The notes beneath the pieces were generated by a model. It was not told where the DNA came from. It made no database searches and saw nothing but the letters and a program-made list of their open reading frames with translations. 64,000 nt of DNA from Albula goreensis (Eukaryota; Chordata; Actinopteri; Albuliformes; Albulidae): the NCBI GenBank assembly GCA_022829145.1, contig CM040753.1, forward strand, positions 7,150,884 through 7,214,883. Reading direction: 5' to 3'. Shown here piece after piece: positions 20,764 through 50,389 of this stretch. Positions within the stretch are counted from its first letter, which is position 1; every line of letters starts with the position of its first letter. Both the position numbers and the translations under genes were made by a program.

Positions 20764-20938
20764 CTACCTGCCAAAAATGTTCTCATACTCCAGCAGGATG
20801 AGCTCCACGATCTGGTTCTGGTAGACCATGTGCACGGCGATGTTCCCGGTCTCCGTCTCGGGCCTGAGCAGGGTCGGCCCGAACACGATGGCCACGCTTT
20901 GAGTCGTCATCCTGTTCATCTCGCCATGGTCGATCACT
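20764..20938 (-). CDS. arhgap12: arhgap12 last coding exon: RhoGAP C-terminal helices and stop
   Basis: Residues 561-618. The acceptor is TTTCCAG at 20939-20945 and the entry completes a split Lys codon. It encodes [20 protein letters not shown], then [16 protein letters not shown], and ends in ENIFGR followed by TAG at 20764-20766. The [12 protein letters not shown] motif is the subfamily form of the conserved RhoGAP helix that most other RhoGAPs write with N at this place. The end matches the native C terminus of vertebrate ARHGAP12 (…SIFGR). Confidence 0.96.
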
Positions 20939-23900
20939 CTGGAAACAGAGACAGCGTATAGATTTGTTTGTGTACACACTGTATACTTAATATGAACTAA
21001 TTAAATAACCACTTTAAAAAAACCTTACTCTTTCAAAAGTAAATATGCATACGTATCTCATACTGTTGACATCGGGAGAGAGAGGAAAGAGGGGGGCCGT
21101 GCTAACATGGGTTTTGCTTTGTGGCAGGCGAGGTTTCACTGCTGCACACTAATCAGTTGGCAAAATGGAGTTTCTGTGAGCATGCATGCTGATACAGTAA
21201 GGTGCCTGGTCCGCCAGAACTGCATAGCAGTGTGTGTAAGTGGGCAATCTTAAAAACCCCAGCGCAGCTCTGGTTACGCAACATCACTTGTTATCTTAAC
21301 AGGGCAAAAAAAAAAAAAATATCCCTCTCCAGGAGACAAAATGTCAACTGTAATCTCTTTTCCAACGGAGAAGCAGAGAGCCAACATCTCAGCATCATTT
21401 AAATGCAAATGGCAGATAAAGAAATGCCATTCTGTGTGTTTAAAATTAAGCAGTGGTCCTCTGGGCCTCTGAGCCGTCTTCAAACGGCTGACTCCCTCGA
21501 GCTCAGGGCTATGTCAATCCAAATACTGCACAGAGAGAGAGAGCGCTCCAATGCAATCACTCGTACACATATTCAGTGGATATGGCAGTGTCCACTTCTA
21601 AGCACACTCGGTGGATATGGTAGTGTTCATGTCTAAACACACTAAGTGGGGGAGGTAGTGTTCACTTCTACTCACACTTAGTGGATATAGCTGTGTTCAC
21701 TTGAACACATTCTCATTGGAATGTCTTTGGTAGTGTTCACTTCCAAAGAGTCTCTAGAGCACAGTAGATGATGACTAACAATTTAGATCAAACAGAATAA
21801 ACATCTCCAGCAAACTCTCTGCAGTTTTCCCAGCAGTCCTGCTGAATCTCATATCAATCGCCGCATGATGCCATTAATGTCTGCCAGGAGGTCCAAACCG
21901 CACTCTCCTCGATCCCACACTTCTGTTCAGCACAGCATCTCACAGGGAGGAGATTAGCGGGAGCAGATTTACGCGGTTCTCTGTGCTAAAGCGGGGCTAA
22001 CTCTCACCATGCTCCTGCGACTGTCGCCTGCCCCCCCACACTCGCGCACTCTCCGCTCACACCTCTGCTGCCAACCTGTCGGTGTTCCTCCAACAGGAAG
22101 GCCTAATCGTGCAGGACAATAACAAAAACACTTCAGTTCTGTCCAGAGTGGGCACTCTCCTCCACCCCCTCCCCTCCCTCCCCCCATCCCCAACGCCCAC
22201 GTCCTTCAGTGCCAGACAGAGAACAAGCAGGGCAAAATGGGCTAAGAGCTTCATCGCCATGGCCACGTACTCTGCACGCACGAGTGAGAGGAGGAAAATC
22301 TGCAGGCGGCCATTTCTCCAGCCACTGAGAGTTTGGCCAATAAACACATCCATTTCGACTGCCACTGAGAGTTTGGCCAATAAAGTGTAGCTACTGAATT
22401 ATTTATCAGACCTGAAAGCTTAGTTTTTAAAACTTATTATCCATTTATACAGCCTACAGCACTTCAACTTCAAATATAGTGAGATATAACATCTGTTACC
22501 TACGCGGGATTAAAACAGACATCCTTATGGTTCTGTTCAGTCCCATTGTGGGGATAGGCTTATTTAAGCAGCAATCTTCATTCCTGTCACTGCACTGACC
22601 TAAGTCAGCAAACATTTAGGGGTTTCATCAGAAAGCCTAAAACACAGCAGAAAAATACACTCGCGTGTCTCCTCCTCTACTGCCCCCACCCCACCCCCCC
22701 AACCCATGAAATGGCCGCCTCTCTGGCTGATGAACCCAGACACTTCTAGACACCCTCAGAGCTGCGAGCTGCCTCGAGCCGCACCACTCCAGCGTGTCGA
22801 GAGCCGCTCGATCATCGCGTTACCCATCATGCCGCGGTGCGATTGGCAGCGTATCGAGTGGCTTTCCCTCTGGAACGACTCCACTCTAATGACGGAGCTG
22901 GCCGGCCTCCAAGTCTGCCTTACTAATGGATGGAACAAGATAACCTAATACAGCTTTGCACACTGGCCGTGGGGGGGGGGGTGGGCGAGGGCGTCTTTGG
23001 CTGCAGGACTGTCTGTTGTGACATTTTTGTGGTACGGTACAAGTCTAGGCTATTAGGAAATATCACAGACCACGTCCTTTTTAATTAAGCGTATCTAACG
23101 AGGAACAGAGTTTTTAAGTCCCAACTTGTTACAAAACCAAAGATAACATCTCTGTCCCCGCACTCAGTGTTTTTTAATATGTTTTCAAAATCCTTTAATT
23201 GGACCATCATCCCCTGTTTTAGATGAAAGAAACACGGGGACATACTGGAAACCAAAACAAAAACTACTGTCTGGTTTTTAGTAATATTCTACTTACTTTC
23301 TGAGGTGCTTGAAAAGAACTTGCATTGTGTCGTGGTTTGGTTTTGGCAACTGCTTGATTAAGTCTTTTATACAATGTACACGCTGCTTGTAGTCCGGACA
23401 TTCTGGAAAAAGAAAGAACAAATTAAAAAGGTTTAATTTCATGACTAGTATCAAATAACTGATTCCCTAGCCTCGCAAAAGATTCCAAAGAATGTCTCCA
23501 TTTTTGGTGTGATGTGGCACCACCATGTGGTCAAATGAAGAAATGCAGGCTTCTACCATTTTCATAATGGAAAACAAAATCAAACAAAAGCAGTAGATAT
23601 GACTATCAATCATAAAACCTTGTCATTGTCTACATTTAAATATAACAATTATGCATTTAGCAGACATAAAGCAGCTCACACAGTTTACATTTGTTATACA
23701 GTTGTTTAAAGTCGTTATGCATTGTTTCAGCTCAGTAGTTGCTATAGGAAATTTAAGTGTGTTACCTGACTCAGAGGTCCACTACCTTCCCTCTGAGTGG
23801 GAATTTAACCTGCAACCTCTGAGTAACAAGACCAGCTTCCAAACCATTACACCACACCACCACCACCCATGTATTTCCATAATTGCTGGGTTCTGTGCGT

Positions 23901-25855
23901 GTTTCGTCACTGGTACTCACTGATGGCGTTGACGAAGTCGTTGAAGGAGCCATAGGTGAAGAGAGGCTCGGGCAGCTCTCTGAAGAACATTTTCAGGGCT
24001 CCTGTGGTCACGTGGATGTCCTCCCACTTGCTGTCCTGCAGGTTCACCTTCTCATCTGAGATCCAGAGACAAGGAGAGTCAGAGCTCAACCGCACACAGA
24101 GCGCAGCTCAGCCATCGGTTACCCACCCTGCATAGCGACCGTACGCTGCCATGACCAACCACACGCTAATGACCATGCCACTCAGAGTCCAAACCGAGAT
24201 AATGACCGTGCCACACCGACACTGACCACAGTAACCAGTTGCTGTTCTGTCTCACTGCCTGATTCAGCAAACACACCCTACAGAAACTGCCGCTGCAGAG
24301 AATGACCGCCTACACCACTGTGTGATTGACCACTGAGGAAAATTACATCCTGTGTCACTCTGATAGTCCACCCAAGTAAATTAGATGCTATTGCAACTAT
24401 GACTGACCTCCAGGGAAAGCTTCAGATTCCATGCCCCTGTGCTTCACCACAACAGCAAATTGCCATGTACTGCAATGTTGTGACAGACCGCAAGAGTCAG
24501 TTACCAAAAGCCCTGGGGGTTTCCCAAAAGCACAACGAAACTGACCGCTTAAACACTGACCACAGGCCTGAGAATATGCCCCGCCGTGACAGGCCGTAGC
24601 CATGGGAGACACAGTACATTTAGAGAGCGGCTTAGCGGCGTGATGCAGGGGAACGAAATCACACGCTGGGAAGAGAGGGCTTTCAAAGCCAACACAAAGT
24701 TAGGGAAGAGGAATCCTGAGACAGGGCAAGCAGAGTTTAATTACAGACACTCAAACAGAGCTATCTGTCTGTTTGACTTCGTTGCTGGGACAGCTCAGCG
24801 GAGATGAAGCAGCTGGAGCTGAGACAGGAGGGGGAAGGTGGCACAAGGCTTAAAGTATAACTCAAACATAATTTGAAGGTAGTCTGCCACGGGAATCACA
24901 GGAGTCACATGTGTGGGCCCATTCCTAGCAAAGCAGTGGAAGACGATCCGTCTGACGGCCAGATAGAACACGAGTTCAATCCAGGTTGGAAAAAATAAAT
25001 ACATTAAATTGTAATTATAATAATGAGAATATTCAATTCGCTATGCTTGCTGGGTGGATCATTCTGTTGCAGTCCTGTTCAAGTCTGTGGATGGGTCCCA
25101 TGGTCTGGGAGTGCCTGATTGGCATTTGTTTTGCACAGAGAGGGAAGGATTACATCAGAGGGGATGTCCCTGGCTTATTGCTCTCTGGTGACCCCTGCTG
25201 GCCTGCTGGGTTGTTGCAGAAAGTTACACGCGAAGCACCAGGTTCTGAGTTCTGGTGTGTGGCCAAGATACAGTGTACTCGTCAACTGTGACCTGATCTG
25301 ACTGAGCTCTCCTGGATTGAAGTTACAAATGGGAGAACAGAGAGGACAAAAACAGCAATAAATAATACTGACTTGCTATAAGCAGAGCGATAAACCGTCC
25401 ATCCTGATCTCTTCGGCTTGAAATTAATTAGTTTGTGTCTGATGTCGTTAGGATGTACTGTATGTTTATATATTGATAATCTATGTCTTTTACATATGAA
25501 CTCAAACCGCCTGTCATGAGAGACAAATTCCTAAAATATGGGAATTGAGTGGCTGTTGATGTGAATCTCTGGAGCCCTCCAGGATAAGAATTTAATGACC
25601 ACAGTCAGCTGATAAACAAATACAGAGTGAGGCTTTGTGACTTTCAAAGGCCATTCCCTGTGCCCAGTGAAATTTGTTGGGAAAAAAAAAAAAGACATTT
25701 AAAAAAAAAAAGGTGAAAAGAAAACAACAATGCGCACTCAAATGAAGATCAGTAGAGAATGGGGGTGTGTTCTGTGTGTACCCGGCCACTGATAAATGCT
25801 TTGTGTGGAAGATTGTTGCCTGAGTGTTTATTGACTGGGTCAAGCTTTAACACAC

Positions 25856-25913
<58 letters not shown>

Positions 25914-26888
25914 ACCGTGATTCACAGCAAAGCGCAGTTTCTGTATCACGGCCAAGTTCCCACTCACTCTGTATAATCCATCAACATTCAGACCTGCAGG
26001 GGAGCGAGAGAGAGAGAGAGAGAAAGAGACAGTTGTCAACTTCACTATAACAGCTGAGTCTTTTCTCAGGCACTATTGAGCATCAAAAACCTGAACGCAA
26101 ACAACTAACTAAAGGCTGCCCTTATCGTTAGCATTTGATCAGCACACTGTTATATGTATATAATTCAGGTGTAAAACGACGTTACAGCAGACAAATACCT
26201 GAGGGACAGGAATGCTACGTGAGCAAAGGGAGTGACAGGGCTAGCAAGGTAATTACAGTTAGCAGACACACTGTCCCTAAAGGAAATGAGCTCAGCACCC
26301 ACAGAGCGACAGCATGTAAGCTAGCCTTCTGACACAGACATCTCAGATCCTGTAATGGTAAGAAACGTTTGCAATATCTTGAGAATTATGAACCTGAGCA
26401 GGAAATAAACGATAGGAAAAAGCAGGGGTCGCTCGTTATTTCACCCGTGGAGGTTAAAAAAAGGATGAGGAGGTCGGGGCGTACCTGTGTTTTCGACATG
26501 GTCGATGCACATCCTGACGAACTCGGGGACTGAGGAGCTCTCCCTATGGCACAGGCTGGTGAGGCTGCAGCCAAAGACCTGATCTGAAGAACGAAATCAA
26601 GATGAAAAGAAGAGTTAAACACCATGTGATTTAGCATGACTCGCACTATGAGCTAGCACTGGGCATCAGCTTTACACTTCACCTTCATTACGGCCGGAGT
26701 TTAAACTCAGCCAAGTAACCAAACACAACGCACTCACACACTCACACACACTCACACATTCTCACACACTCACACACACACTCACACACTCACTCACACA
26801 CTCTCACTCACTCACTCACACACTCACACACACTCACTCACTCACTCACTCACTCACTCACTCACTCACTCACTCACTCACTCACTCA

Positions 26889-26958
<70 letters not shown>

Positions 26959-28315
26959 ACACACACTCAGTCACTCACACACATACACACACACACACAG
27001 CAGTCAGAGTTAATCTATATAAAAATAGAGTGAGAGAGAGAGAGAGAGAGAGAAACAGAGTTCACTGCAGGGTAAGAGAGGCAGAGACCCAGCGATTCAC
27101 TCCTTTCCACATTGTGAAAAGAACCCGGAAGTAAGAGAGACATAATTCAAATAATTCTTAAAATTCCAAAAGAAAGCTCCCTCCCTGTCTAATGAACAAA
27201 AGCTGAGAGACTTTTTAGGGGAAGGACACAACAGCCCCACTCGCAGCTCAGTATATCTCAACCTCTCACAACCTGAGGGACAATATACATGTAAACACCT
27301 GACAGCAATACATTATGCTTGTATGTTTACACATACATGTTTATGTTTAAATTAGTTGGACTTAAACTTACATTTAGGTACCTTTTTAAATGGCTAGGGT
27401 TATTATAATTTCAGAGAATGTACTGATAATTGGATAAATGTGTACATATTTCATATGTCACTGTGAGTCATTCTGCTTAAGATCGTCTGATAAATGCCTG
27501 CAAGATAATACAATTTACAGTAAGTATTTAATTCCAAAAGAAGCATATTGAACAAATTGAGCAAGAGAGAGAGAGAGAGAGAGAGATTGAGGGAGCAAGA
27601 GAAATGAGAGACATAAGTACAGTGTGATAAAATCCAAACTGGAGTTATGCAGCAGGAATGAGACAGTGCTCGAGTTTTTCATTGGTCAGCCATGACACTA
27701 AGGTGAACCTTCCCTCCATATTTCTCTTCATGACTACCTGGCAAAGCTCAAATTCAAGGAAGGTCATTCAGACTTGGCTGTTATTTGCCAGACCTGTGGC
27801 TGGGGAAGCCATCATAAAAAAAGCCCATGAGATCTTCAGAAATGTCTTAATGAGGTCTCTGACACGGTGTGTTTTCATATACACTACGGTCTTCCAGCTA
27901 CAGCCTCATGCAGGGAGAAGGTCGCAGACCCTCCTGTCCTTTACCTTTGATGTAGCCCTTGTCTCTGACGGCTTGCAGGGTAGGCCGTCGTGTGAGGAAC
28001 TTCTTCAGCTTCACTCGGGTCTTCTTCTGGTCCGAGCAGTCCATGCTGGCAGAGTTCTTCATGGCTGGAAAAGTCAAAGGAGCCCAGGTTTTATCAGGGG
28101 GATAATGAGCTGAACAAACACCTGTGGTCACATGACCCACTGTCTTCCAGATAGAAGCATCTCAGAGAGAAACATACTGTAACAGTTACGCTCATGTATG
28201 CATACACACGCACACGCACATATATACACACATATGAGTGTACATCCATGCAGACACACATGCACACAGATGCAGACAAACACAAATGGACAGTCACGCA
28301 TACACAAGCACATGC

Positions 28316-28351
<36 letters not shown>

Positions 28352-28364
28352 GTGTGTGTGTGCG

Positions 28365-28442
<78 letters not shown>

Positions 28443-31400
28443 TAGAGTGAAATTCTCCCTCCTGCTCACCTCTGCTCTTCTTAGAGTCACGGTGCTCCTT
28501 CTCCTTGTCATGCTTCTCGGCCCCCGGAGACTCCGGCATGTCCTCCTCGATGGCCTCGTCTGACTCCCAAGCCTGCATGCACACAACGCGTCACCATTAC
28601 CAAACATTTAAAATCCTCCAATCATAGGCCTGTCCTCTCACTGCAACATCGCCTTTCAGTTAAAGACCACAGACAAGCGCACAAAGTGTGTGTCTGCAAC
28701 CCTTCTTGTCGCCCTGAAGTCCACTTCCTGACGTTATGCCACTTGAGAAAGAGACAGCCCTGCCAGGATGGGCATTCAGTATTTGATTGTATGCTCTGCC
28801 TCATCTTAGGCAGCAATGTAGTGCCAGGGTTAAGGAGTGGTCCTTGTAACTCACAGGCAGTTTGATTTCCGGCTAGGGTTCTGTTGTTGTACCTTTAAGC
28901 AAGGTGCTTCACTTGAATTCCTTTAGTAAATATCCAGCTGCATAGAAGGATAGTGTGTAATATGCAAACTGTAAATCTACCTGGATAAGAGTGACTGCGA
29001 AATGCCTGAATGTCTCCTTTTACTGGAGATTTACTGGGCATTAGCAGGACAAGCTACTCAGTTAAGGGGACAGTTGGAGCTTCTGTCAAGTAGGGTTGGC
29101 TGAGTAAGGTAATTCTGACTCGTTCCTGGCCAGCGCGTCCCTTTGAGTCAATGCTGCCATCAAGTGGATATAAGAGGTATTGCAAACACACCTTCTGTGT
29201 AAACTCTCAAGTAAACGAAAACAAAAACCAACAAAGAAAAGAAAAACCAAGCGCTTCATCGCACTGGTGAAAATTGGCTTTTGTGAGGTTAGCTTTTGCA
29301 ATTTGAATTTCCTGTACCTCTCACTGTAATGTGTATATGTTTGCCTGGGTGCCAATTTAATGAGATGAGCACGCAAAGGATGCTGTAGTGGAGAAAATGA
29401 ATTTGGGTAGGGACAGGTGGTGTGTTTGAGAGAGTGGGTGCATGGGATCCTTAGGGTGGGGGGATGCTCACTCACATGAATGCTTATTGTCTCAACCAAG
29501 GCTCTGAACCAGTCATTGATGACGCTGTCAATCTCGGACTGAATCAGCAGTTCTGTACCCTGCCGAGTCTTCAGCTGAAGAGAAAACACACACAAGATTT
29601 TTCTCATTTACAGACAGTAAATCAATCCAGCCAATGATCTGAATTATTTTTACAGAAACCTCTGAGTCCCAGAACATCAATTCATTTCCTACAGTGTGTA
29701 ACCACACATATGATTTACTAAAAACAATAAATAGTAAATGTATAACATTTCTTTTGCAATGCAGTCATGCAACCTGTTTAACCTGTAATGATGTCACTAA
29801 AGCACTAGAGGGAGACAAAGTGCTTTATGGTGGAAGTACAGTGAATTTGCACTTCAGAGCTCATAAACACCTTAAACTAGTTCCCTATGATGATGTGTGG
29901 TTTGAGAGAAGACTGGCATGTACCTCTATGACATGCTTCTTGCTGGACTTGTCCTTGGAGGCCCACTCCACTGAACCTCCTCTGAGATCCACTGTGAACT
30001 CTGGTTTGGATTGATTGCTTCCAAATTTCTACAAGGAGTGAGGAAAAGCAAAAAAAAAAAAAACATGTAAATTTTATTCTACAAAGCATGCTGGAGAGTT
30101 AGTAGACACAGCGATTAAATCACAGCACACAGCAAAGAAACCGACTCCCATGATTTATGCTGGTAGGTGTGATGATGGCTGCACTAGCCACCTTTCACTG
30201 CAGCGCCTCTCAAAAATACAGGCGTTAAGATTCAGGACGGGTTCCCGTCCGTGTTCTTCCTGGCCCATTACCCCGACCCCCCTGAGCCTGCCAAGCTCCC
30301 ATCTTCCCAAATCGAAGCGCGTCACACTCCGATGCTCGCTCCGTCATGGTGCTGATCAAGACGGCATCCGGTCGCTAGGGACTCCACAGCTTTACTGACA
30401 GTGGATTTCTTTGAGGGGTTACTGGATTAAGGGTGAACATACGAGTAGTGGGGATGTGCTGGGATCAGTTAGTAGAACAGAATATTTTTTTGGGTGCACA
30501 CCATCATCGGCCATCCCTGCAAGGAGAGGGTTCATTCAAACTTCTTCTGCACATAATCACAGGGGAAGGTTTTTTGGTACTATACAATAGTACTAATTAA
30601 CCAGTCGGCAATCAATGGTTGCAGAGTGCCAAACGGTTCTTTAACAGTTCTACACAGGACCAAAGAGGCTCCCCTGTGATTAACTCTTTTGGTGCCGTTT
30701 ATGACCTTTTTTTGGGGTTTTGGTTTAACCATTAGCACCTCTGTACCAGCTACAGATCTGGCTCTGGTGATAAGGATCGTGGGTATGCGCGTCTCAGCGG
30801 TGCGAGCCGAGACACTGCAGAGAGACAGGGCCCTCCTTCGCCCTTCGACGGCTCAGGGACACAGCTCGAGAGGCCGCTAATCTGCATGCCACATGATGAA
30901 AGCCCTTCTCAGAAGCACACCCATGTACAAAAAAAACTTATCAGTGTCAACGTCACTATCTAGCTATCAGCAGCAGCTTACATATAAATAGCCCCAAATG
31001 GCAAACAGACAAACAACGTTGAAATGGTGCATTTTTTTCACATTACAAATGTCGATTACCACACATTGTGCCGTAAGTTCCTTGGTGTTTATGAAATTCA
31101 CTACATGACAGTGGAACCTTAATAGGGTCATGTATTTTCATTTCATTTACTTTTGTGAAATTGTGTGAACCATTATTGCTCACAGAGACTATTATACTAA
31201 CTGAGCATTTTTTTATTTTATTTTCAGTTAAAGTAATTCAGGCTAAGTACAGCAAAGGGTCTGAATAACTGTGCAGTAATCAGTACAGGCCTTTTAAATT
31301 ATTTACTGTCAGTATATATTTCTGCTTTGTTCATATACAGCATTGAGTATGATGTGCAGATTATCTATATGAATTACTCCTTTACTACTTCCTACATAGG

Positions 31401-34400
31401 GAAATACAGAAAGGGTCCTTCACATTCTAATGTTGAACTAAAAACATTTGAACATAAAATGAATACAGTCAGTTAACACTTCCTCTCTCTATGTTCATAA
31501 TAAATGGCATATTATCACTTAGCTTGAACTGAGCACGCTCAATGCAGCCATATCTCTACATCACTGACAGGAAAACCAAAAAAAAAAACAAAAAACATTG
31601 TGCTGTGAGACACTATTGACATTTATTCTTCAAACATGCCTTATCTTCAAATGTGCTGACTAACTGTGAATTCTCATGTTTAAGATGAACCTGCAAAAAC
31701 GTCCCGTGACAGAGGGGGGTGAGGTGCTATCACCTCAACAATTTAGTGACAGCGTTCTGACACTTTATTCAATTGCTTGTTCGTGTGGAGGGAATCCAAT
31801 CAAATGAAAGTCCGGTTCGATGTTTACACAGCACGTCCCTTCAAAAGGCACAGAGATGTCCTTTCAAGGAAATCTGTGGGTCCTTTCAAGCACATAAAGG
31901 CGCAGTTCATAATCACATTTTCCCAATCAAATTAAGGATCCGCTGTGTTAATCAAAGAACGGAAGCTAAGCAAGGCTGACAGAGACACCCGCTGAGCTCC
32001 TCCAAACCTAATCAGAGAGCACTGGATACCCTTCAGTGAATGTGCACCCATATCGATTGACCTTTATAACTCGATTAAAAGAGGCCAGGGAGCACAATGC
32101 GGAAACAATGCGGAGCCTCCACAAGCACTACATAAACCTTCATGAGCACCATATGAACATTCATAAGCGCTTATGCTAACCTATACAGTGCAATGTTACA
32201 GGGCACCACTGGGTGTGTGACATGTACTTCCATGCATGTCAGATGTATCACTATTGGCTGTTGCTAACCCCACCCCCATTCCCTGCGACAGCTGTGATTG
32301 GTGCATTCAGAGTTCAGGACAGGCTGCATGCAGTAGACGGCAATACACACAGGTAACCCTTATAATGCAGCAGAGTTAGACTGAAGCACAGATTAAGCAT
32401 TCCAAGCACCACCAAGAACTGTTTGAGTTTAGGCAGTTCCATGTAAGAGGTGATTAATGAAATCCCCACAGCAGTAGAAATGTTTTCACCCTGTGCTTTC
32501 ACTTTGAGATGCAAGTCCACAAAATTTAAATGAGCTTGAGAAAAGCTGGACAGACTCCAAGGTAAAGTTCAAATGAACTTTTAGTTAAGGTTCAGCTCTT
32601 CACCTTAGCTGTTCCAGCAAACCTTTAATTAATGTTAAACAGGTTCCAAGAGTGGAGATGAACATATAATTAGTGAGACTGTGAGCCTTGCTCAGTTAAC
32701 CAGAGCCTGGTCTCACCTGCTCATTCCCACTGGCTGCACATTTATGCATGTTTTATACAGGACTTTGAAAGGACTTGGAGTGTATTCTGTTCACTGTTGA
32801 CTGTGATCAGTCTGCGAAACACAGCTTTTTTTTAGGTACTGACACCTTTACTAGACAGACTCGGTGATGTTTTTACACTACATATTTTATACACACACGT
32901 TATATCCAGCTAAGGGAATTCATAATGTACCTCCCTTTTCACTCTATCAGCACACAGCAAGGAAAACAAGGTGAGGAGAAATTCAACAGGTGGGAATGTG
33001 GCCTGAAGCGAGTGAGTGGGGGAGGCAGCCGGACAGACAGACAGACAGACGGATGGGCAGCATGCAGAGAGGACATACAGCTGTGGCTGGGCCTGGCCCA
33101 GGGCACACATAGGACACGGCGGGCGGGCTTGACCGAGCGCCTCCAGTTGCTTAGCAGCGAGAGAAGCAGCTCGGGGATGGAGCCGCTGCGGCAGTATGAC
33201 TTGATGGAAAAGAGGAGGGGGGAAAGTGGTGATGTCACAAAAGTTCACAAAACCACAGAGGAGAGAAAAAGAAACCAAAAGAACAATGAAACGCACAGAG
33301 GAAGCAGACGGCCAGACAGACAGACTTAAAAGGCTTTTTCAGACAGATCTGAAAGACCACCCCCCCCGAGCGCTGTCTGTGAATGAGGTTTCAAAACTTA
33401 AACAAAGACCTTGACTTTACACTACAGATCCATACAAGAATACAAAAATGTAACTATATTGACCTTGCCACTGCAGTTGAAATATATTTTAACATTAATG
33501 ATGCGGCATAATTCAGACATTTACAGGTATTTTTTTAAACAGCATTAATCATTAAAACATGCTTACTATAAACTTGTTTTGAGTAGTTTATTAGTTCTTA
33601 TATTGGTATGTTGAAAGAAGTTTGAAAAATAATATTGTATAACTCAAAAAGCAAACTTATGTATGCATTTATTTAATTCTTTGTTTGTTTATTGTGCAAA
33701 TTTCTATACATGGCACTTTGAACAGTCTGGAGTCAATATGCATCCTACTACATTAAAGTGAAACACATAAGCTGGTCATTATGCACTACAGATTTTACAA
33801 TCCTGCTTTATTTTCTGAATATATTCCAGATGTGGTGGAGTTAAACCCACAGGCTGAGTGAAGGGATAGTGTGCTGACAGGCTAAAGACCATCCTGCCAT
33901 TTGCACGGTGTGGAAACCGTCCCGCCTGGTCTCACGGTATGCCGTGTGCTTCCCCAGAACCTTAGGCTGATGACATGTACACAACTGGCCCGTGCAATTA
34001 ACCAATTACAACTGTGGTGAACAGGAAAACTGACCCTAGCCCAGCAGAAGCCTCCAGAACGTTAAAAAATGACAGAGGTTTGCGTTGGTGTTTCCTCTGT
34101 GGTCATTTCATGACAGCTGCATTGTGGGGAAATCGCTGGACACTTACCCAGCTGGTTCCACTCCCCTGGCCCTTGGCGAAGAGCAGAGAGGAGCCCTGGA
34201 GCACTGTCCAGGAGGAGGTCCAGTTCTTCCTGCAACCACAAGAGAGCACTCATTAGACCACACCTTGGCCCAATCAATCAATCAATCAATAATAAACAAA
34301 TTTCAACTAGGGGTGAAATTAATGGAAATTGGACATAGATAAACCACCTCATAAGTGACTTTATGTTGGTCTTTACATTTTCTTTTACTCACCATCTGTA

Positions 34401-37400
34401 ACAGCCCAGAGAGAAAACTGTGTGGGATTTTCTCTCAAGCCACCATGGCCTCCCCCATAACAGGAAGTTCACTGACATTTATTGATGTTTTGATAATGTG
34501 ATTTTAATGATCAATAACAGTCATTCATGATTTATGAAGCATTTATAACAACACTACTGTGGGCACTGAGTTTTTATGGTTGTGTTCTGAGGCCTGACAG
34601 TATGTGCTCAGCACCAAGAGCCGTTGGGGTGAGGGCATTCTATCCATCAGCCGAATCTCTGCTTTAACTCCAGCTCTACGTACCGTACTTTCTTTCCGTT
34701 CTCTGTGATCTTGGTGACATTCAGAACTCCACACTTTTCAGAAGGCTGCAGATGCAAGAAGGTAAGTAAAAAAAAAATCATTGTTAGCAGCGCAAGGAAA
34801 GAATGGCATGAAAATAACAACAAATCTGCCAGCGCCAACAAACCTGTAGAGGCAAAGCATACACAACATCAACACTAAAGTGTGAGCACATCCGTGAAAA
34901 GCTAATCACCCAGAATAGTTGCACAGAAATGTTGTCTATGCTGTGCTGCGGACAGACACACACAAGTGCGCACACACACTGCAGAACCACGCATAGCGTA
35001 CATTGCTCATGGCCTGCTGGGAAAGTGAACACATCAAGGTGAGCTGACAAGCCCTTGTGTTTTTTGCGGTAGCCACCACTGAAACTGCAACGCTGCCGCA
35101 GGATGACAGACAACAGCTGAAGCCTCATTACAGATCCCCTCAGACCCAGTCACAACGAAAGCCTGCTCCCCCACACTCTGGGCCTACACCGTCACCTCTG
35201 TGACAGTTATGAGTGAAATGGAACACCTCGTGAGAGGAAGCAGAAGAGGAGATGACTGCTGGAACTGTGTTCTGCTCCAGAAGGGGAAGTCAGCGTGAAG
35301 GCCCTTATTTACCTGCCATCTGCCTGGTGTGCCTTGTTGCACCAGTCTTAATGTATTCCTTGTCTTATGAAAACCAAGAGCTAAACTGAGATAAGTATGC
35401 ACAGATACAGTGGAACGTGTGCAGCTATCTGCTTTTCCTTTTATGTAAAGAAACACAGCTATTTGACAGTTATTGGGCGGGTGTAACTTCCGCTGGTTTT
35501 GATTGGTCAGGTCTCCGCGCATATATTATCTCAGTTTAGAGTGCACATTGTACACAAGCACTGACACAAGGCTGGTAGCTGAGGGCTGGTATAGGGACGG
35601 AGAGGGGGCAGGGAGGGCAGGGTTAGAGGAGCACAGACAGGACGGGAGGGGATACTAACGGTCGTAGGGGGCTTGGGAGATGAGGGACAGGAGTCGGAGT
35701 CAGGAGAGCTCAGTTTGGGGCTTGTCGCAGACTCCTGGGAATGAGAATGGCATCATAAACAAATGGACTTTACATCTACTGAGAGCACCCATATAGAGCA
35801 TTCAACTCCCCATTACAGAGGAGAATCAACTCAACTGAGGTGGCGTGTTCCCCTCTCCAACACAGAACATTATTAGACAGCATGGAGGTGGATCATGAGC
35901 CGTCACCAAACAAATAGAACACTGAGAACGATGGTTAAACACCCACCTCACAAACAGGAAGAACATGAGTAGAGAACGCAGAGATGGAACATTCCCATCA
36001 CAAAAAATGTGGGGGGGAAACACACAAAAAAAGAAAATAAGCAGGTATAGTTATTACATGGTAAGTGAATATAGATCAGGCCACCAAACATGAGTGGATT
36101 TTGCAGCATGAGCAGATAAATGCGGGTCAATGAAGATGCTCTTTTGTACTGGCTTACACTTCTGAACCCTACATATTGATTTAGGGAGACTCAATGCAGA
36201 TTAATGACTGCGAGGCGGTGGGCAGAGACTCAAACTGGCTAGCCGGGATCGGGTGTCGTATCTTTAACACAATCGACTGCATTTGAATTTCTGCTGGATT
36301 CAGCCATGTACCGAGAATAAACACGGGGCAAATCAATGTAGCAGCGCACTGCCCTATTTCGTTTGTAAAGCAATAAATATGATTAGCTTAATATGATTTC
36401 CCTCATTACCCCCTCAGCCGGGTCCAGATCAGCATGTATCCAGCATAATTCACACAAGAAACACATTTCAAGCTTGCACACACAGAAAAAATGGTAAAAA
36501 ATGGATTTGATTCTATCCAAACCTTGCTTGCTTGCTGACTAAATACTTCTGACCATCACTCTCCAACAGCAGAGTATTCTTTTCCCCTTTATTCCCATGG
36601 ACCTCACTTAAGTTACAGAATCACCCAATCAGGTCCAAGGACTGGTGAATCCAGCCAATCAGCAGCTCCTCTATGTGCCCATTGGTTGACCAGAAAAAGT
36701 CACTATGTTGTGGCGAGCCAGAGATCATTACCACTGAAAGATTAGCGAATTACGGAAATTCCAGGAACTGCCATCCAGGAACATCAACTGTCACGTAGTT
36801 TGATTTTTGAAAACAGTATTCAGAACAACAAAGAAAAAAGCCAAATATAGAATACTCCCTTTAGGTCTGCACAATACCAGCCTTCTGTTCTGCTTTGTAA
36901 ATGTGTTGAAAAAAGGGGTTGAAAGCTTTTGGTTCCTGTTGAGGGTTCCTGAAGCACTTCCACTGGCTCACTGTTCGAGTGTGTTATTTTCTTCCATTAA
37001 ACTATTGATGGACACTGTTTCTCCCTGCAATGGGGATGGGCCCATCTCCAAACACACTGCTTTTACTGACAATATCCGCTAGGATATAAAAAAAAAAAGC
37101 CTTATACTTGCAAGACTAGTCTAAAGTAAACAGAACCATAATCTTTCAGACAGTCAGGAGGACCTTAGGCATTGTAAAACCATGCATATTTGCTTTGCTT
37201 TCTCTGACTGTTCTATGGCATTGCAGCTTTGGATACAGGGTATATAATCAACTTTAAAAAATACAGAGCCTATTCTGAACCTAGATGATCAGTTCAACAC
37301 TTTTTATTCAGTACTTTTTTCCTCCTGTCTGAGAAAAAGGAACACACACACACATCCATCTTAGTGTCAGTCATGAATAAACAAGAAAAAAAAACAGGAT

Positions 37401-40400
37401 AAATACATTTCAGAGTCTTTTCAAACTCATTACAATATTTTCAGACACAATGAAAGCTGGGACAATGACTCACAATCTAAGCTCCGCCTCTGCCGGGGTA
37501 CCCCCCTTCCCCCCCGAAAAGCACAATGAGATCCAGAGATAAAAGGCAGCTCCTCAAATGCAAAGAATTATTATTGATATCATTCCTTTCACTGGAAAAA
37601 GACGCTCAAACCAATAGGGAGTTGAGAATAACCTCAGACAAGAGTAACGGATTACCTATTGTATAAATCAAACACAATGGCCTCATGAAGAAGCAGTTCA
37701 AATAAAGGTCATCAGAGATAGAGATTATGGTTGGTCATAGACAGACACAACACAACACCACAACCCCCAAAATGGGATAAAACTCAACAGCTGGCTTCCC
37801 AGACAGTGCAGACTGCCACACTATAACCCCGCCAACTGCTACCATTTAGGTTATGGAGAGCCAAAAGACACTTTCAAATTCTCCCTGCGGTCTTATCATT
37901 TATACTGGAAGGACGGTTGGACGATTTCAATGGTGAGCGACATCAGAAAGGGGATTGAATTTCAGACAGGCCCTGGCTTTGGGCTGGTCGGGGAAAACAG
38001 TCACCATTCCATTCTATACTTAGCAACTGGGCTCTGCTTTGTGCAAAGACCAAAACAGACACACTCACTTTTGAAAATAATGATGAGCTTTAGCAAAAGT
38101 GGGTCCACCAGCACAGTTTAATCAACAGTCATTGAGGCAGCGAGCCTTCAAGAACTGGTACAGTGATGACAGTCCATACACATTTTCTTAACCAACATTG
38201 TACTGTCCTGTCTGCATCTTGAAGTCCTCTCTGTCCCTCTTGTCTACTGTACCTCCATTTTCTCCCCTGAGGGGTTGAAACCTGGTGAAAAGCCTGCTAA
38301 CATTAGCTAGGCTCATCTTTACCTTTCGCTGTATGGCGACTGTCAGTTCTGCCACTCTGAAAACACAAAAGGCGCCCTGACTCCAGGCTTACATCAGACC
38401 CAAGTCCCTGATCCACACTTGTGACTCAGCTGAACAGGGTAACCCCTTGCCTGAAGCACAGGAGCACATCTCCTGAGAGACGGCGCGGACGGTGGCCCTT
38501 ACCTTGTCACTGACGTCCAGCACGTAGGCACTGTGTCTCCACTTGGTCAGCACGATGGGTTCCGGCACCTTCCTGTCGAGACTTCGGCTTTTGGGCGGGT
38601 CCCCAGGCTGCGGAGGGGAAAGGTTATACTGCAGAGAAATCGAGAGAGAGAGAGAAAGGGAGACAGAGAAAAAACATCAGATTGGAGAACTCCATGTGCA
38701 AATATACAGTGGACCAAATACAGGGCCCTGCTGTACCTCTCTCCTCACAGCCCAGAACACCATCTGTGAGTCACGGTCCTGGTGGAGAGAGTGTCGCCCT
38801 GTCACCAGGCTCCACGGTAACAGGCGCTGACCCTGCGCATTTTGGTTTATCTAACGCCTGCCGACATGAAAGTTGCTCCTAAGCCACACTGCTGCCCTGA
38901 TCTCCATTAACTTAACCAGATTACTGCCTTTCTGAATTTAGCACTGTCACAAAAGACTACAGGATCAGCTCAAGAACGCCAATGAACCTCCTTCACACAA
39001 CGGGAACTAATGCCATGTGACAGAAGCGAATATATATCTAGCATTAGCCTCAGGTTTAGATTTAAGATTGTGAGGTCTTCTATTTTAGCTATAAAGCGGT
39101 GAACCTAGATCTGTGAACCGTGCCACACACTGTCAAAAGGCAACTTCAAGCAAAGATAATTCTGTGCGTGTGTGTGTGTACGTTAGCACCGTATTTACAC
39201 ATTTGTGTATGCCTATATCTGTGTGCGCGTGTGTGTATTTGTTAGTATTGTATTTACATGCTTATGCGTGCCTATATTTGTGTGTGCATGTAACACAGGA
39301 AAAGGCTGTCTGGAGGCCTGCGCATCCTGTAGTGTGATGGAAATGCCCCCCCTGCAGAGCTAGCAGACACGAGCAGAACTGAAAGAGCCCAAACACAACA
39401 GAATTTCCTACTTCCTCTAATTAAATCCAGCCATCTCACCACCCACCAGCTCTGAGTTAATGGACTGACACTTTCTGTGGCCTATGTCAAAGCCAGTGAG
39501 GTCTGGGTACCGATGTACATCCCATAATAAGCCATTGTTTCTGGATAGTAACCCTGCTTTCCTGTAGAATCTGCCCATTCCTTGGTGATACCCAGCTGCA
39601 GACAGTCCAGAATGCTATTGCTGGGATTCTAGCTGGGATGAAGCAAAGCGTATCATCCTATGTCACCTGTCCTGGGTTCTTGTCACAGGCTTCTCTGCAA
39701 ATTCAAGCAAGATTCTGCTCCTTCCCTGGGAAAAGTGAGTGGGCTAGCGCTATCAGGCATGAGTGGCCTAGCTCTGTCATACCTCAGCAGGCTTGTTATC
39801 CATTGCTGTCCCCCGTGGATGCGATGGTCTATGACTGCAGGCTGGCTACCTGAGCTTTCCCAATACTCAGAACAGGGGCCCGGAAATTCTACACACATAA
39901 CCCTTAAATTACAGACTGAGGTGTCACACCATGCCAGGAATCCAGACAGCCTTGAAGCATCGATGCTGAAGAGCCACAAAAAGCTAACATCTCCCTGCCT
40001 GCTAGTTTTTACTGCTGATGCAAATAGGGCAGCTTTAAACCTAAACTAGCAGCAGCTTCCAATGGTAATAAAACTTCAAAAGCAAACTCCTGCTCCATGA
40101 TTTGCATGTGTAGGGGTTTACTCAACAGCAGTCGGTTTGGAAAGGAGTGTCATCAGGCAACAGACAACTGTACTTAAACCTGTGAGTAAAACATGCATTT
40201 TTTTTTGGATTCTGAAACATTATTATGTGGATTTAATTTGTTAAGAGAGCTGGAACCAGTCCTCTCGCGATCCTTCAGACGCTATCGTCATTGTCATATC
40301 TTCTGGTAAGGGTTTTGTGTTTGTCACAACACACTCTGGGGCACTGAGAAAGACTAAATGAAAAGCAGTATTCTATATGGGATATATTATTGTTGTTGTT

Positions 40401-40411
40401 TTTGTGTTGTT

Positions 40412-40448
<37 letters not shown>

Positions 40449-43229
40449 CCATTTTCAGTACCACTGATAGACTCACTTTTGGAAGCTCCCACTCAGACCT
40501 GGATCCGTCCACGCTGTAGTAGTAAGGCCGTCCTTGTTCATCCACATGCTTTATCCACTGAAAACACACCAGATAGATGAGAAAAGCTGACACATATACC
40601 CCCTGCACACACCCACACACACACACATATACACACGCGCACACACATGCACTCAGCAGCTCTCTCACTCTAGCATTTAAATTAAACTCAGCACCAGCAG
40701 GGAGTGCAATGACAGAAGGAGAACAATGCATTCAGAACATGCCTCGCCTGGGTACCACTGGGTTTATTTTTTCTTTAAAAAAGAAACACTGTGTTTTTTT
40801 TTTTCTTGTATAGATGCTACCCCAGTTCTCTATCAATATTGAATGCCTAATTTGTGTGTGTCCATGCTCCTTCTGCAACTGCCTCAATTCAGAAGAGCAG
40901 ACAAAAGCATGTACTCTCCTCCGAAACATGTGATGTCAAGCCACGGTCTGTCCTCTCTCCGCAGTGCACTGGTTGTGCTTGCACATTGAGCCACGGGAGC
41001 CAAAGTGTGCTAGTGAAACTTGTGCGAGACAAACAGTAGGAGCCCGACTGACCAGAAGGGGTCACTGGCGAGCGATGAAACAGACTTCCTGCCAAAGTGA
41101 ACTCCCGGTGCCCCTTATTTTAGCAATTTAATTGTTGCCTTGTTAAACCGGATGCACTGTATGTTTCTTCTTGTCCAGGACACTCTTGCAAAACAGATAT
41201 TCATCTCGGCGGGACTTTATTGGTAAAACAAAGGATAAATTAAATGAAACATTCTTAATCCCCTTAAACCCTGGGTGAACCTACACCCAGTTATACATAG
41301 CTTTATGGAGCAGCTGGACACAGCCAACACTGGCAACCACTTTTCGTAATAGAATAAAACATAGCCCTGGTTAGGGAACAGCCTAACTTATTACCTAACT
41401 GCCTGATTATTTTCTTACACTAAATCTAGCCAGGCTGTGTCCTTCGATTCCCTTTTCTGGGGTAAGCTGTTTATAGAACTTACTTCTTTCCCTATTCTAC
41501 CCAACCAACCAAGCGCTAATGAGCTATAAATGGTAAAATATCTGTATTGCTTCAGATGGATAACTTTGTGAACGATAAGCCGTTAGCCGCATCAGACTAA
41601 GTTTACTTCCTGTCTGATGAATACATGAACCCACTTCCCTTCCCCTCCCCTCCTGATTGGTCATCCTGTGGGTCTGAGCTAAGCAACTGGGTGGAAAATG
41701 GGTGTGTGTTCAGCAACAGAAATAACCAGAACCTCACACTTAACATTTGACATTAAGCAGATATTCTTATCCAGAGCTACTCAGGGAGTTTCATCTTTAC
41801 TCCTTTTCATACAGCTGGATATTTACTGCAGCAAATTTAACTGAAGTACCTTCATCAAGAGTACAAAAACAGTACATTTCTAGGGAATTGAACCTGCAAC
41901 CCCTGAGTAATAATTATACTACTATAGCTGTCCACCTCTACCCCATTGACCTTGTGTCACCATTGTTCTGTATGTTGACCTTGTAACCTTTGACCCTTGA
42001 CCCCCAGGAGGACCAGAGCAGAAGGGAGGACTGATAGATAAATGGATAGACAGACAAAGGCCCCAGTACCTTCTCATTAGTATATTCACAGACATAAAGG
42101 GTGTGTCCATGCTCATCCAGCTCCTCTGACCAGCCCCTCAGAGGGGAACCGTACTGGCTGTCTGATTGGCTGGAGTACGTGCTGTGGCAGTTCTCTTCCG
42201 ATGACAGAGGCTGGAATCAACAGGTGGAAAAAGGAAGGGAAAGAGGGAGAGAGGGAGAAAGAGAAATCTGTGTGATTCATGGGGATGGGGGGGGGTGATT
42301 TTCATCTGTTGAACATTGAGAGGTTCATCAATTTAGGAGACAGGAGATAGTTTCACCCCAGAGGAAATAATCACGGTTAATCAGGAGGCAGAGAGATCCC
42401 CGGAGATTCACATACCCGTACACAGAACAGAGTCAGATATCCCATGATGCTTTTCAGTGGTACCACAGCAGGTAAATTATGCAAAATTTGGGTCTGGGCA
42501 TCTGTTATCAGTCTGATTATAGTTCTTTTGTGTGGGGCTGTTAGCGGAGTACAACCTCAGATGTACAAACCAATGGGTCAACCTAATGGATTATGAACTC
42601 GGAAACAGCACATGCATTTACTGTGATTATCAATTACTGTAAATGCATGTAAATTATCAATACCAGGCTTGCTTTATATTTCAGCATGGCAAGCATGAAG
42701 CCATAACCACTCATTCTTTCTACTGACAAAAAAAAAAACATTAGTCTAAAGACCTGGTCTTAGCAACATAGCTAAAGAACATGGTGTGTTAAAAAAAAAC
42801 AGTGTACATTAAGAGGGACAAGAACAAAACCAAACAATAAACAAATCGAGCCAAAGACACTGTGTCACTGAAAAGGAGAAGTATCATTTAGAAAGCTAAC
42901 ATAAAAAAGTAATGTCCAAATGAGCCCTTGTCTCATTATTAATTTGGACTGTGACTCTTATATAAGGGACTAAAGGTCAAAATCTTTAAACTGGTGATTC
43001 TTTAGTTACTTTTGAAGTTACAAAAATGTTCTACTTCTCAGGCACCCACCATTCTTTAAATTGGTTTGGCTCTGTGACTTTTTACAGTGACTCAGTTTAT
43101 ACGAACAGCTGATGACACCCACCAAAGATGATGAAGACTGCGTGCGCGCACGCACACACGCACGCACACACACGCACGCGCACACACACGCACACATGCA
43201 CACACACACGCACGCACACACGCACACAC

Positions 43230-49176: not shown

Positions 49177-49260
49177 CTGGGGTCCAGGGCTGCAGACAAA
49201 CACGTCATCGTCTTCCTCCTCAGATCTGCGGTAGCCTTTAAAAGTGCTGAATCTGATCAT
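49177..49260 (-). CDS. Candidate alternative first coding exon of arhgap12
   Basis: GCACC-ATG is a strong Kozak context. It opens 28 codons, MIRFSTFKGYRRSEEEDDDV followed by FVCSPGPQ, ending at CAG|GTGACA. Its phase-0 donor fits the phase-0 acceptor at 45222, so a transcript from here would encode 28 + 618 = 646 residues with WW, PH and RhoGAP but no SH3. The frame stays open upstream (DRQGHGQIARGQEVLEQTKG…), and TTTCAG (49400) or CTCCTAG (near 49345) could be acceptors, so it may instead be an internal exon. I recognise no homologue. The supporting points are codon-like composition, the donor, the phase and the Kozak context. Confidence 0.5.
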
Positions 49261-50389
49261 GGTGCGGGAGAGATGGTCTAGTTTTCCCTTTGTCTGCTCC
49301 AGCACCTCCTGACCTCTAGCTATCTGCCCGTGTCCCTGTCTGTCTAGGAGCAGGAAACCCCAGATGCTGCTTGTGAAACCATATGTGTGTAGACTGACTG
49401 AAATGACACCAGATACACACACACACACACACTCACACACAGGAAGTGGCTGCGGGAGAGCCCTCCCTCGACTCTTTCCTCTGCTGGTGGTGTGTGCATG
49501 TGTCTGTCCTCGTGACGCCTCCAGCCCAGTGCAAAAACCAGGCAAAAACAAGGCAGGGCACAGGTAGTCCACGTGCTATACAAGTACGACACACACCCAG
49601 AATCAGGAGTGTCCCATTGGAGGAGGGACGAGTGATCCTGCCTCTGTGCTGATTCACCACAACCCACTGCTGCTTCTCAAAAGCAGAGCCTTCAGCCTGG
49701 ACCACGCAGGCTCTCTGTGGAGGCCCAGCCCAGACCAGCACAGAACACAGGCATAAGGTGGGGAACAGCATGCAGGTGACAGGGGACACCCAGAACACTG
49801 GGTAAAGAGATACATATGGTCCCACGGGAGGGCCCACTCTTCCTGGCTGCAGGATATGTGACCTGAAGGCTTTTGTGCCATATGATTCTCTGGTGTGAAA
49901 TTTCCAAATTGGAAAATGAAGAGCTTGGTGCATGAAATAAGCATGATGGGAGCTCGGGTTATGAGACATGGTGCAGCAGCTCTTGGGAGGAACAGCGGAG
50001 CTGCTCTACAGCTAAACCCCTGGAGTGCAGCCTAAGGGCGCCCCCTTGTGACAGCACCCAAGCAGTTCAGTTCACCTCATCAAAGAAGGGGAACACATTC
50101 TTGAAGGGGATAATTACATAAACATCCAAGGCTCTATGATGAGATTCCAAACCCATGGTGCAGACAAGAGTTATTACACAAAACTTTGATAAGGCACACA
50201 CTGCACAGCAGGGGTTTGAACAGCTCCTACATCTGTAGTGAGATTGAAAAAAAAAAAAAAAAACTTAATTCTGAACTTGAATTAAAGAGCAGAAGATTCC
50301 TCTTGAGCTTCCACCTGCCACCTTCGGCATAAGGTGAATCACGCAGCAGTATCGGGTTGCCTCAAACCAGCACTGATAAATATAAATGA

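Follow-up and report, generated by a model that had tools for sequence, protein, structure and literature searches.

A probable alternative first coding exon of arhgap12 in Albula goreensis that would encode an SH3-less protein

A 28-codon segment in the 44-kb SH3–WW1 intron of arhgap12 in Albula goreensis is, with a probability of about 0.8 as judged from comparison of two gene copies, a true alternative exon of this gene, either the first or the first coding one. The segment, referred to here as the leader, opens with its own ATG and closes with a donor whose phase fits the WW1 acceptor, and its ATG, donor, and reading frame are conserved in a duplicate arhgap12, where an in-frame stop codon lies upstream. 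Transcription, splicing, and translation of the leader, and the loss of the SH3 domain that would follow, are predicted from these features. In our best reading, arhgap12 would have alternative first exons that omit SH3.

The arhgap12 gene in the window and the anatomy of the leader

The window, i.e., the whole stretch of 64,000 nucleotides that was analysed, is C13:7150884-7214883, and the genome searched comprised 932 Mb in 208 contigs (5,000 of the 134,000 bases of the C13 stretch read N). Exons were mapped by tblastn with the human ARHGAP12 protein, and those of arhgap12 in the window run from WW1 at 45222 through the end of RhoGAP at 20767. The features concerned are as follows.

Window 49260-49177, minus strand: candidate alternative first coding exon MIRFSTFKGYRRSEEEDDDVFVCSPGPQ, 28 codons, donor CAG/GTGACA
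Window 45222-44953, minus strand: WW1 exon with phase-0 acceptor CTCACAG/ACT, the proposed splice partner (Pfam)
Window 20767..42207, minus strand: the other arhgap12 exons, WW2, PH, and RhoGAP (tblastn; PF00620 in the last exon)

The WW1 exon comprises the end of the SH3–WW linker (PF16618 positions 162–199) and a WW domain (PF00397). The SH3 exon of the same gene is situated outside the window, about 40 kb upstream of the leader (C13:7241164-7240505), and contains PF00018 and PF16618; jointly with the WW1 exon it spans the Pfam ARHGAP12 SH3–WW linker family. An SH3 domain with an ARHGAP12-type linker and a WW domain after that linker assign the gene to ARHGAP12. The PF00620 match to RhoGAP in the last exon was barely above the cutoff (24.9 vs. 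24.5 bits), and the other exons were recognized by tblastn. The PH exons align to human ARHGAP12, and a single 35-aa exon scanned alone gave no Pfam hit. No RNA families (Rfam) matched the window at gathering thresholds.

The leader has its ATG at 49260, is 84 bases long, and has its donor directly past 49177. Re-reading bore out the coordinates, frame, 28 codons, ATG, and donor given by the initial annotation, as well as its proposal that the phase-0 leader donor fits the phase-0 WW1 acceptor at 45222; the exon therefore has its own start codon and a donor phase matching the shared acceptor. The same annotation had called the Kozak context strong. It reads CGCACC-ATG-A, and the A at −3 and the CC at −2/−1 agree with that description, whereas position +4 is other than G, so the context is good and short of perfect. 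On a matrix of 26 donors from both arhgap12 copies, which were picked by script near the tblastn exon ends and score 2.5–11.7, the leader donor in the window scores 4.8, on the weak side, and that of the duplicate leader 7.0. The frame had also been described as open upstream, which agrees with our translation of 128 codons, all of them open and 28 of them being the exon itself. The SH3-exon donor shares phase 0 with both leader donors and the WW1 acceptor. Since the SH3-exon donor has the same phase as the leader donor, splicing of 49177 to 45222 would exchange about 220 residues for 28, and the residues lost correspond to SH3 and linker-model positions 1–160 of 199.

Similar frames are frequent in the intron. 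We counted ATG-to-donor frames that were 20–60 codons long, had a purine at −3, and ended at a phase-0 donor scoring at least as high as the leader donor, two ATGs that share one donor being counted as two frames. The SH3–WW1 intron on C13 holds 16 such frames in sense (leader included) and 17 in antisense, and the corresponding intron of the duplicate on contig C3 holds 16 (leader copy included) and 13, respectively. Judging the leader by its own sequence was rejected, given that these frames of the same intron look equally good; the leader is unremarkable among them, and the case thus had to rest on conservation.

Conservation of the leader between two arhgap12 copies

The second arhgap12, on C3, has the same exon series (SH3 from 6371250, WW1 at 6407488, RhoGAP end at about 6423868), and the upstream SH3 exons are present in both copies. 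The 28 leader residues matched two loci of the genome at E ≤ 10, i.e., the leader itself and C3:6403806-6403886 (E 1.4e-5).

C3:6403806-6403889: leader copy MIRLRLFKGYFRSGEDDNDVFVCSPGSE followed by donor GTGACG, between the SH3 and WW1 exons

The orientation is the same in both genes, and the distance from leader to WW1 is 3,954 bases in the window copy vs. 3,598 in C3. The two leaders are identical at 59/84 bases and 19/28 residues, free of indels, and both keep the ATG, the donor GTGAC, and the 84-base length. Conservation is found in FKGY.RS, the acidic run, and DVFVCSPG; a conserved serine with an acidic residue at +3, which we take to be a CK2-like site, is noted as a lead only. The blastn match starts two bases before the ATG and stops five bases beyond the exon end. 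The initial annotation had proposed to look for the frame in related fish. The comparison was instead made with the in-genome duplicate, where the frame did prove to be conserved; the ATG, donor, and reading frame are conserved in this duplicate only, so the evidence comes from one sequence pair in one genome.

The 25 substitutions between the leaders are distributed 8/3/14 over the codon positions and change 9 residues, against 14.6 expected if placed randomly (P 0.001), a measure in which P can drop from clustered identity alone. The other two sense and the three antisense frames gave P of 0.27–0.99. In a separate clustered block all six frames were low (P 0.0006–0.048), and in the leader one frame of six. 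The Nei–Gojobori method, applied to this short stretch, gave pS of 0.79 and pN of 0.17, and eight other exon pieces of the gene pair taken together (909 bases) gave dS of 0.62 and dN of 0.057.

The frames counted above served as controls. Two of the 16 C13 sense frames had a match in the C3 intron at E ≤ 0.01, namely the leader (2.7e-10) and a frame with MYSYLRTPHYL (4.4e-5), and one of the 17 antisense frames gave a marginal match (E 0.009) to a target interrupted by a stop. From C3 to C13, 1/16 sense (the leader) and 0/13 antisense frames were matched. The control was rerun on the fetched C13 stretch vs. C3 with exons masked and frames of 15–60 codons. Counterparts were then found for 2/14 sense and 0/14 antisense frames in the SH3–WW1 intron and for 1/7 sense (E 0.005, 60% over 15 residues) and 0/11 antisense frames in the other introns. 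Upstream of the SH3 exon the numbers were 0/24 and 0/16, and downstream of the last coding exon 0/13 and 0/11, these outer controls being weaker since the C3 stretch extends only about 11 kb upstream of SH3 and 16 kb past the last exon.

An in-frame TGA stands upstream of the leader ATG in the C3 copy, with two codons between, so translation of the C3 leader frame must start at the ATG. Entry into the frame from upstream coding sequence is blocked in the C3 copy only, the window frame being open upstream. Apart from repeats and short patches, the sequence upstream of the leader is unconserved between the copies. Acceptor-like sites are present there, scoring 11.7 at −137 in C13 and 9.4 at −90 in C3, and acceptors that good are common, occurring in 15/79 (C13) and 31/70 (C3) of the 500-base intron bins.

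Other explanations of the leader can be weighed against these observations. A conserved noncoding element, such as an enhancer or splicing regulator, with a frame open by chance would be in keeping with the other blocks of this intron that are conserved as DNA with no evident coding frame. However, this is quite unlikely, considering that the substitutions are codon-shaped in one frame of six and that conservation spans just before the ATG to the donor. A regulated poison exon, i.e., a stop-bearing exon spliced after the SH3 exon and lowering Arhgap12 output, would make sense of the C3 stop just before the leader ATG and of the acceptor-like sites. Poison exons are usually conserved at the nucleotide level, whereas here just 59/84 bases are kept, and such an exon gives no reason for amino-acid sparing in a single frame downstream of a conserved ATG; we regard it as very unlikely. 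That the leader belongs to an unrelated transcript nested in the gene on the same strand is more improbable still, as in each copy the leader donor and the WW1 acceptor share one phase, the distance to WW1 is similar, and the other conserved ATG-to-donor frame of this intron is located upstream of the leader, with none between the leader and WW1. The least probable is the internal-exon reading that the initial annotation had left possible, an in-frame cassette between SH3 and WW1 with the upstream frame coding: the 128 open codons in C13 and the acceptor-like sites speak for it, but it was rejected on the C3 stop, no acceptor with an open frame occurs in both copies, the best acceptors lie at non-matching places where the C13 one breaks the frame (137 + 84 bases), equally good acceptors are common, and the upstream sequence is mostly unconserved. 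That the frame is open before the leader in C13 is probably incidental. The phase fit and the frame conservation support the initial prediction of an alternative-start protein in which WW, PH, and RhoGAP would be kept and the SH3 half swapped for the leader.

The WW matches in the genome include the two arhgap12 copies, two arhgap27-like genes (C8, C22), and one arhgap9-like gene (C5), the latter names being inferred from domain order and similarity. This gene set fits the teleost genome duplication, as far as can be inferred, and the dS of the exon pieces and the largely unalignable introns agree with an old duplication, without dating it. Upstream of the WW exons of these paralogues, 20 kb (C5) and 10 and 10 kb (arhgap27-like) were searched together with match loci of about 3 kb, and the C5 stretch is the only one of these that was observed to extend to an SH3 exon. 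The leader gave chance-level matches there (lowest E 0.11, in a ~3-kb target), so the deeper paralogues give no support. For MYSYLRTPHYL the lowest E in the same stretches was 0.020, for MYADLRTRHY on C5, located upstream of the SH3 exon of that gene. The leader pattern had 116 matches in viral contigs and 146 in prokaryotic genome contigs, none of them confirmed; fish DNA is not to be expected in such collections, and the result therefore has no bearing on other fish.

A separate observation concerns the SH3 exon of the C3 gene (C3:6371250-6371905), which in the assembly is one net base out of frame after the SH3 domain and is still protein-like beyond this point, in another frame. The shift could stem from an error in the assembly or from a recent lesion, which SH3-less transcripts would bypass.

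Further candidate starts and other conserved blocks

The two SH3–WW1 introns were compared by blastn with E up to 1, which gave 35 rows, eight collinear rows being described. The 27 rows dropped were mostly TG/CA or similar repeats, or non-collinear, and one of them was also collinear (44 bases, C13 7228926, E 0.003). The blocks and candidate starts discussed here are as follows.

Window 50453-50376, minus strand: conserved noncoding block, located 1.1–1.2 kb before the leader in each copy (blastn, collinear)
Window 49786-49764, minus strand: short collinear block with 21/23 identities, lying ~0.5 kb before the leader in each copy (weak, blastn E 0.11)
Window 58044-57971, minus strand: conserved collinear noncoding block in the SH3–WW1 intron (blastn)
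Window 63745-63713, minus strand: second candidate first exon MYSYLRTPHYL, donor CTC/GTAAGT, phase 0 (C3 comparison)
Window 63875-63836, minus strand: conserved 40-base block upstream of the second candidate, a possible core promoter (blastn)
C13:7231294-7231311, outside the window, minus strand: third candidate start ATGTACCCAGAGGACAAG followed by GTAAGC, encoding MYPEDK (C3 comparison)

The block at 50453-50376 is a possible promoter or enhancer of the leader exon. More generally, the collinear intron blocks may be regulatory, and none of them proves a promoter. Around the leader the CpG content is low, unlike that of a CpG island (CpG o/e 0.34 and 0.53 in the two copies), and no core-promoter element was found to be common to both. 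A TG repeat is found near a CTTCCTG motif, presumably ETS-like, at window positions ~49410-49445 on the minus strand, and in each gene copy this arrangement precedes the leader ATG by a comparable distance; TG repeats are frequent in these introns, so it may be due to chance.

The second candidate reads MYSYLRTPHLL in C3, with donor CTG/GTGAGT. Between the copies, 7 bases and 1 residue differ, where random placement would change 4.9 residues (P 1e-5). This candidate reached the C13 list via a longer 40-codon frame from the same ATG that runs past the donor, and its 15-residue match ends just beyond the donor (V-S-T = GTRAGTAC). The donors of MYSYLRTPHYL and MYSYLRTPHLL score 2.1 and 4.3, respectively, which is poor on the gene's own matrix, so neither copy passes the threshold of the frame list; their intron side is consensus and their exon side is not. 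The 40-base block upstream is 37/40 (92.5%) identical to C3 and ends 90–100 bases before the ATG. Within it, both copies contain CTAAATATAA, at −109 and −119, which fits the MEF2 consensus; on the gene strand, this MEF2-like pattern has 20 occurrences over the 134 kb of C13 analysed and 7 over the 80 kb of C3. The third candidate has MYPEEK as its C3 copy (C3:6380099-6380116), and its near-consensus donor AAG/GTAAGC is identical in both genes and scores 11.8. It is a weaker candidate and is too short for testing.

Two more conserved blocks were observed elsewhere in the gene. The intronic block at window 33207-33034 (minus strand, 174 bases) is 84% identical to the duplicate gene (E 2e-45) and lies between two PH-coding exons, with its first ~80 bases nearly identical and a pyrimidine-rich stretch preceding it. 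It had no Rfam match and no single reading frame stands out, and it could be either a conserved element or an unrecognised cassette exon. A block of about 77 bases running downward from window 18602 (minus strand), ~2 kb past the last coding exon, is 89% identical to the duplicate and ends in AATAAA; it is probably the end of the 3′ UTR.

Predicted product and comparison with known systems

We hypothesize that RNA polymerase starts at an internal promoter in the SH3–WW1 intron, or else at a noncoding exon close by from which splicing leads into the leader; the acceptor-like sites upstream would permit the leader to follow such an exon. Translation would then begin at the ATG at 49260, and the leader would be spliced in phase 0 to WW1 at 45222. 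In the predicted product, a 28-residue basic-then-acidic leader would replace SH3 and most of the SH3–WW linker, and part of the linker, WW1, WW2, PH, and RhoGAP would be retained. The SH3-less form may therefore keep its Rac-type GAP function and lose SH3-directed targeting, being aimed by WW, PH, and perhaps the leader. Canonical ARHGAP12 (SH3-WW-WW-PH-RhoGAP) would come from the same gene, with everything from WW1 onward common to both forms, whereas the leader form would lack SH3 and about 160 of the 199 linker-model positions and have the 28-residue leader.

More than one SH3-less start seems to be conserved, which raises the interest of the locus. A broader reading, to which we give somewhat less than an even chance, is that arhgap12 in fish uses multiple promoters, and that both copies have retained at least two and perhaps three separate SH3-less first exons since they arose by an old duplication. 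These would be the MIRF... leader, MYSYLRTPHYL, and MYPEDK (outside the window), each perhaps with its own regulatory DNA and tissue. If this were true, leaving out SH3 would be a regular part of the regulation of this Rac GAP, and the C3 gene, with its SH3 exon out of frame as assembled, may depend on the SH3-less mode. A natural SH3-less form would uncouple the GAP from SH3 partners, so work on the full-length protein or with SH3-targeted reagents alone would miss part of the gene output. Furthermore, the comparison of duplicate genes indicates that one genome can sort a likely hidden first exon from its look-alikes.

In the matched passages of the ARHGAP12 literature, neither an SH3-less isoform nor the leader appears among the matches listed, and the leader form may already stand as a predicted variant in RefSeq or Ensembl annotation. 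As far as the matched text goes, three GAPs, ARHGAP12 among them, are reported to inactivate Rac and Cdc42 while large particles are phagocytosed; recruitment of the mammalian ARHGAP12 to large phagocytic cups depends on PI3K, and the protein is described as acting on Rac and/or Cdc42 (PMC4634337). The isolated human SH3 domain, according to the portion of the source consulted, binds one proline-rich peptide with high affinity, and binding of ARHGAP12 to SOS1, the partner concerned, was not confirmed in cells (PMC10814857). A human ARHGAP12 delta-SH3 is described in the same portion as a construct, i.e., as a laboratory deletion and not a natural isoform (PMC10814857).

The leader exon is probably real, and alternative promoters are already known for another RhoGAP gene, Dlc1. 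The Dlc1 isoforms differ in their N-termini, and the Dlc1 domain set is unrelated. Tks5 (Sh3pxd2a), an actin-regulating scaffold, reportedly has a further isoform that arises from an internal promoter and is without the N-terminal PX domain. In the excerpts available, Dlc1 is described with several transcriptional isoforms and alternative promoters (PMC2839985, PMC3390377, PMC5118400), and a novel Tks5 isoform is said to have been revealed by gene disruption (PMC4178035). Going by these excerpts, Dlc1 resembles our reading of arhgap12 as a RhoGAP gene with alternative promoters, although its isoforms are described at the RNA level and the arhgap12 leader form is predicted from sequence; Tks5 belongs to a different protein family, and a different domain is dropped. 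ArhGAP9 of mouse and rat, in the text matched, occurs without WW, ascribed there to a possible genomic deletion (PMC1805438). On that account, rodent ArhGAP9 is a member of the same SH3-WW-PH-RhoGAP group with one module gone, as in the leader form, but it represents a species difference in which WW is gone, whereas the leader form would arise from an alternative start that leaves out SH3.
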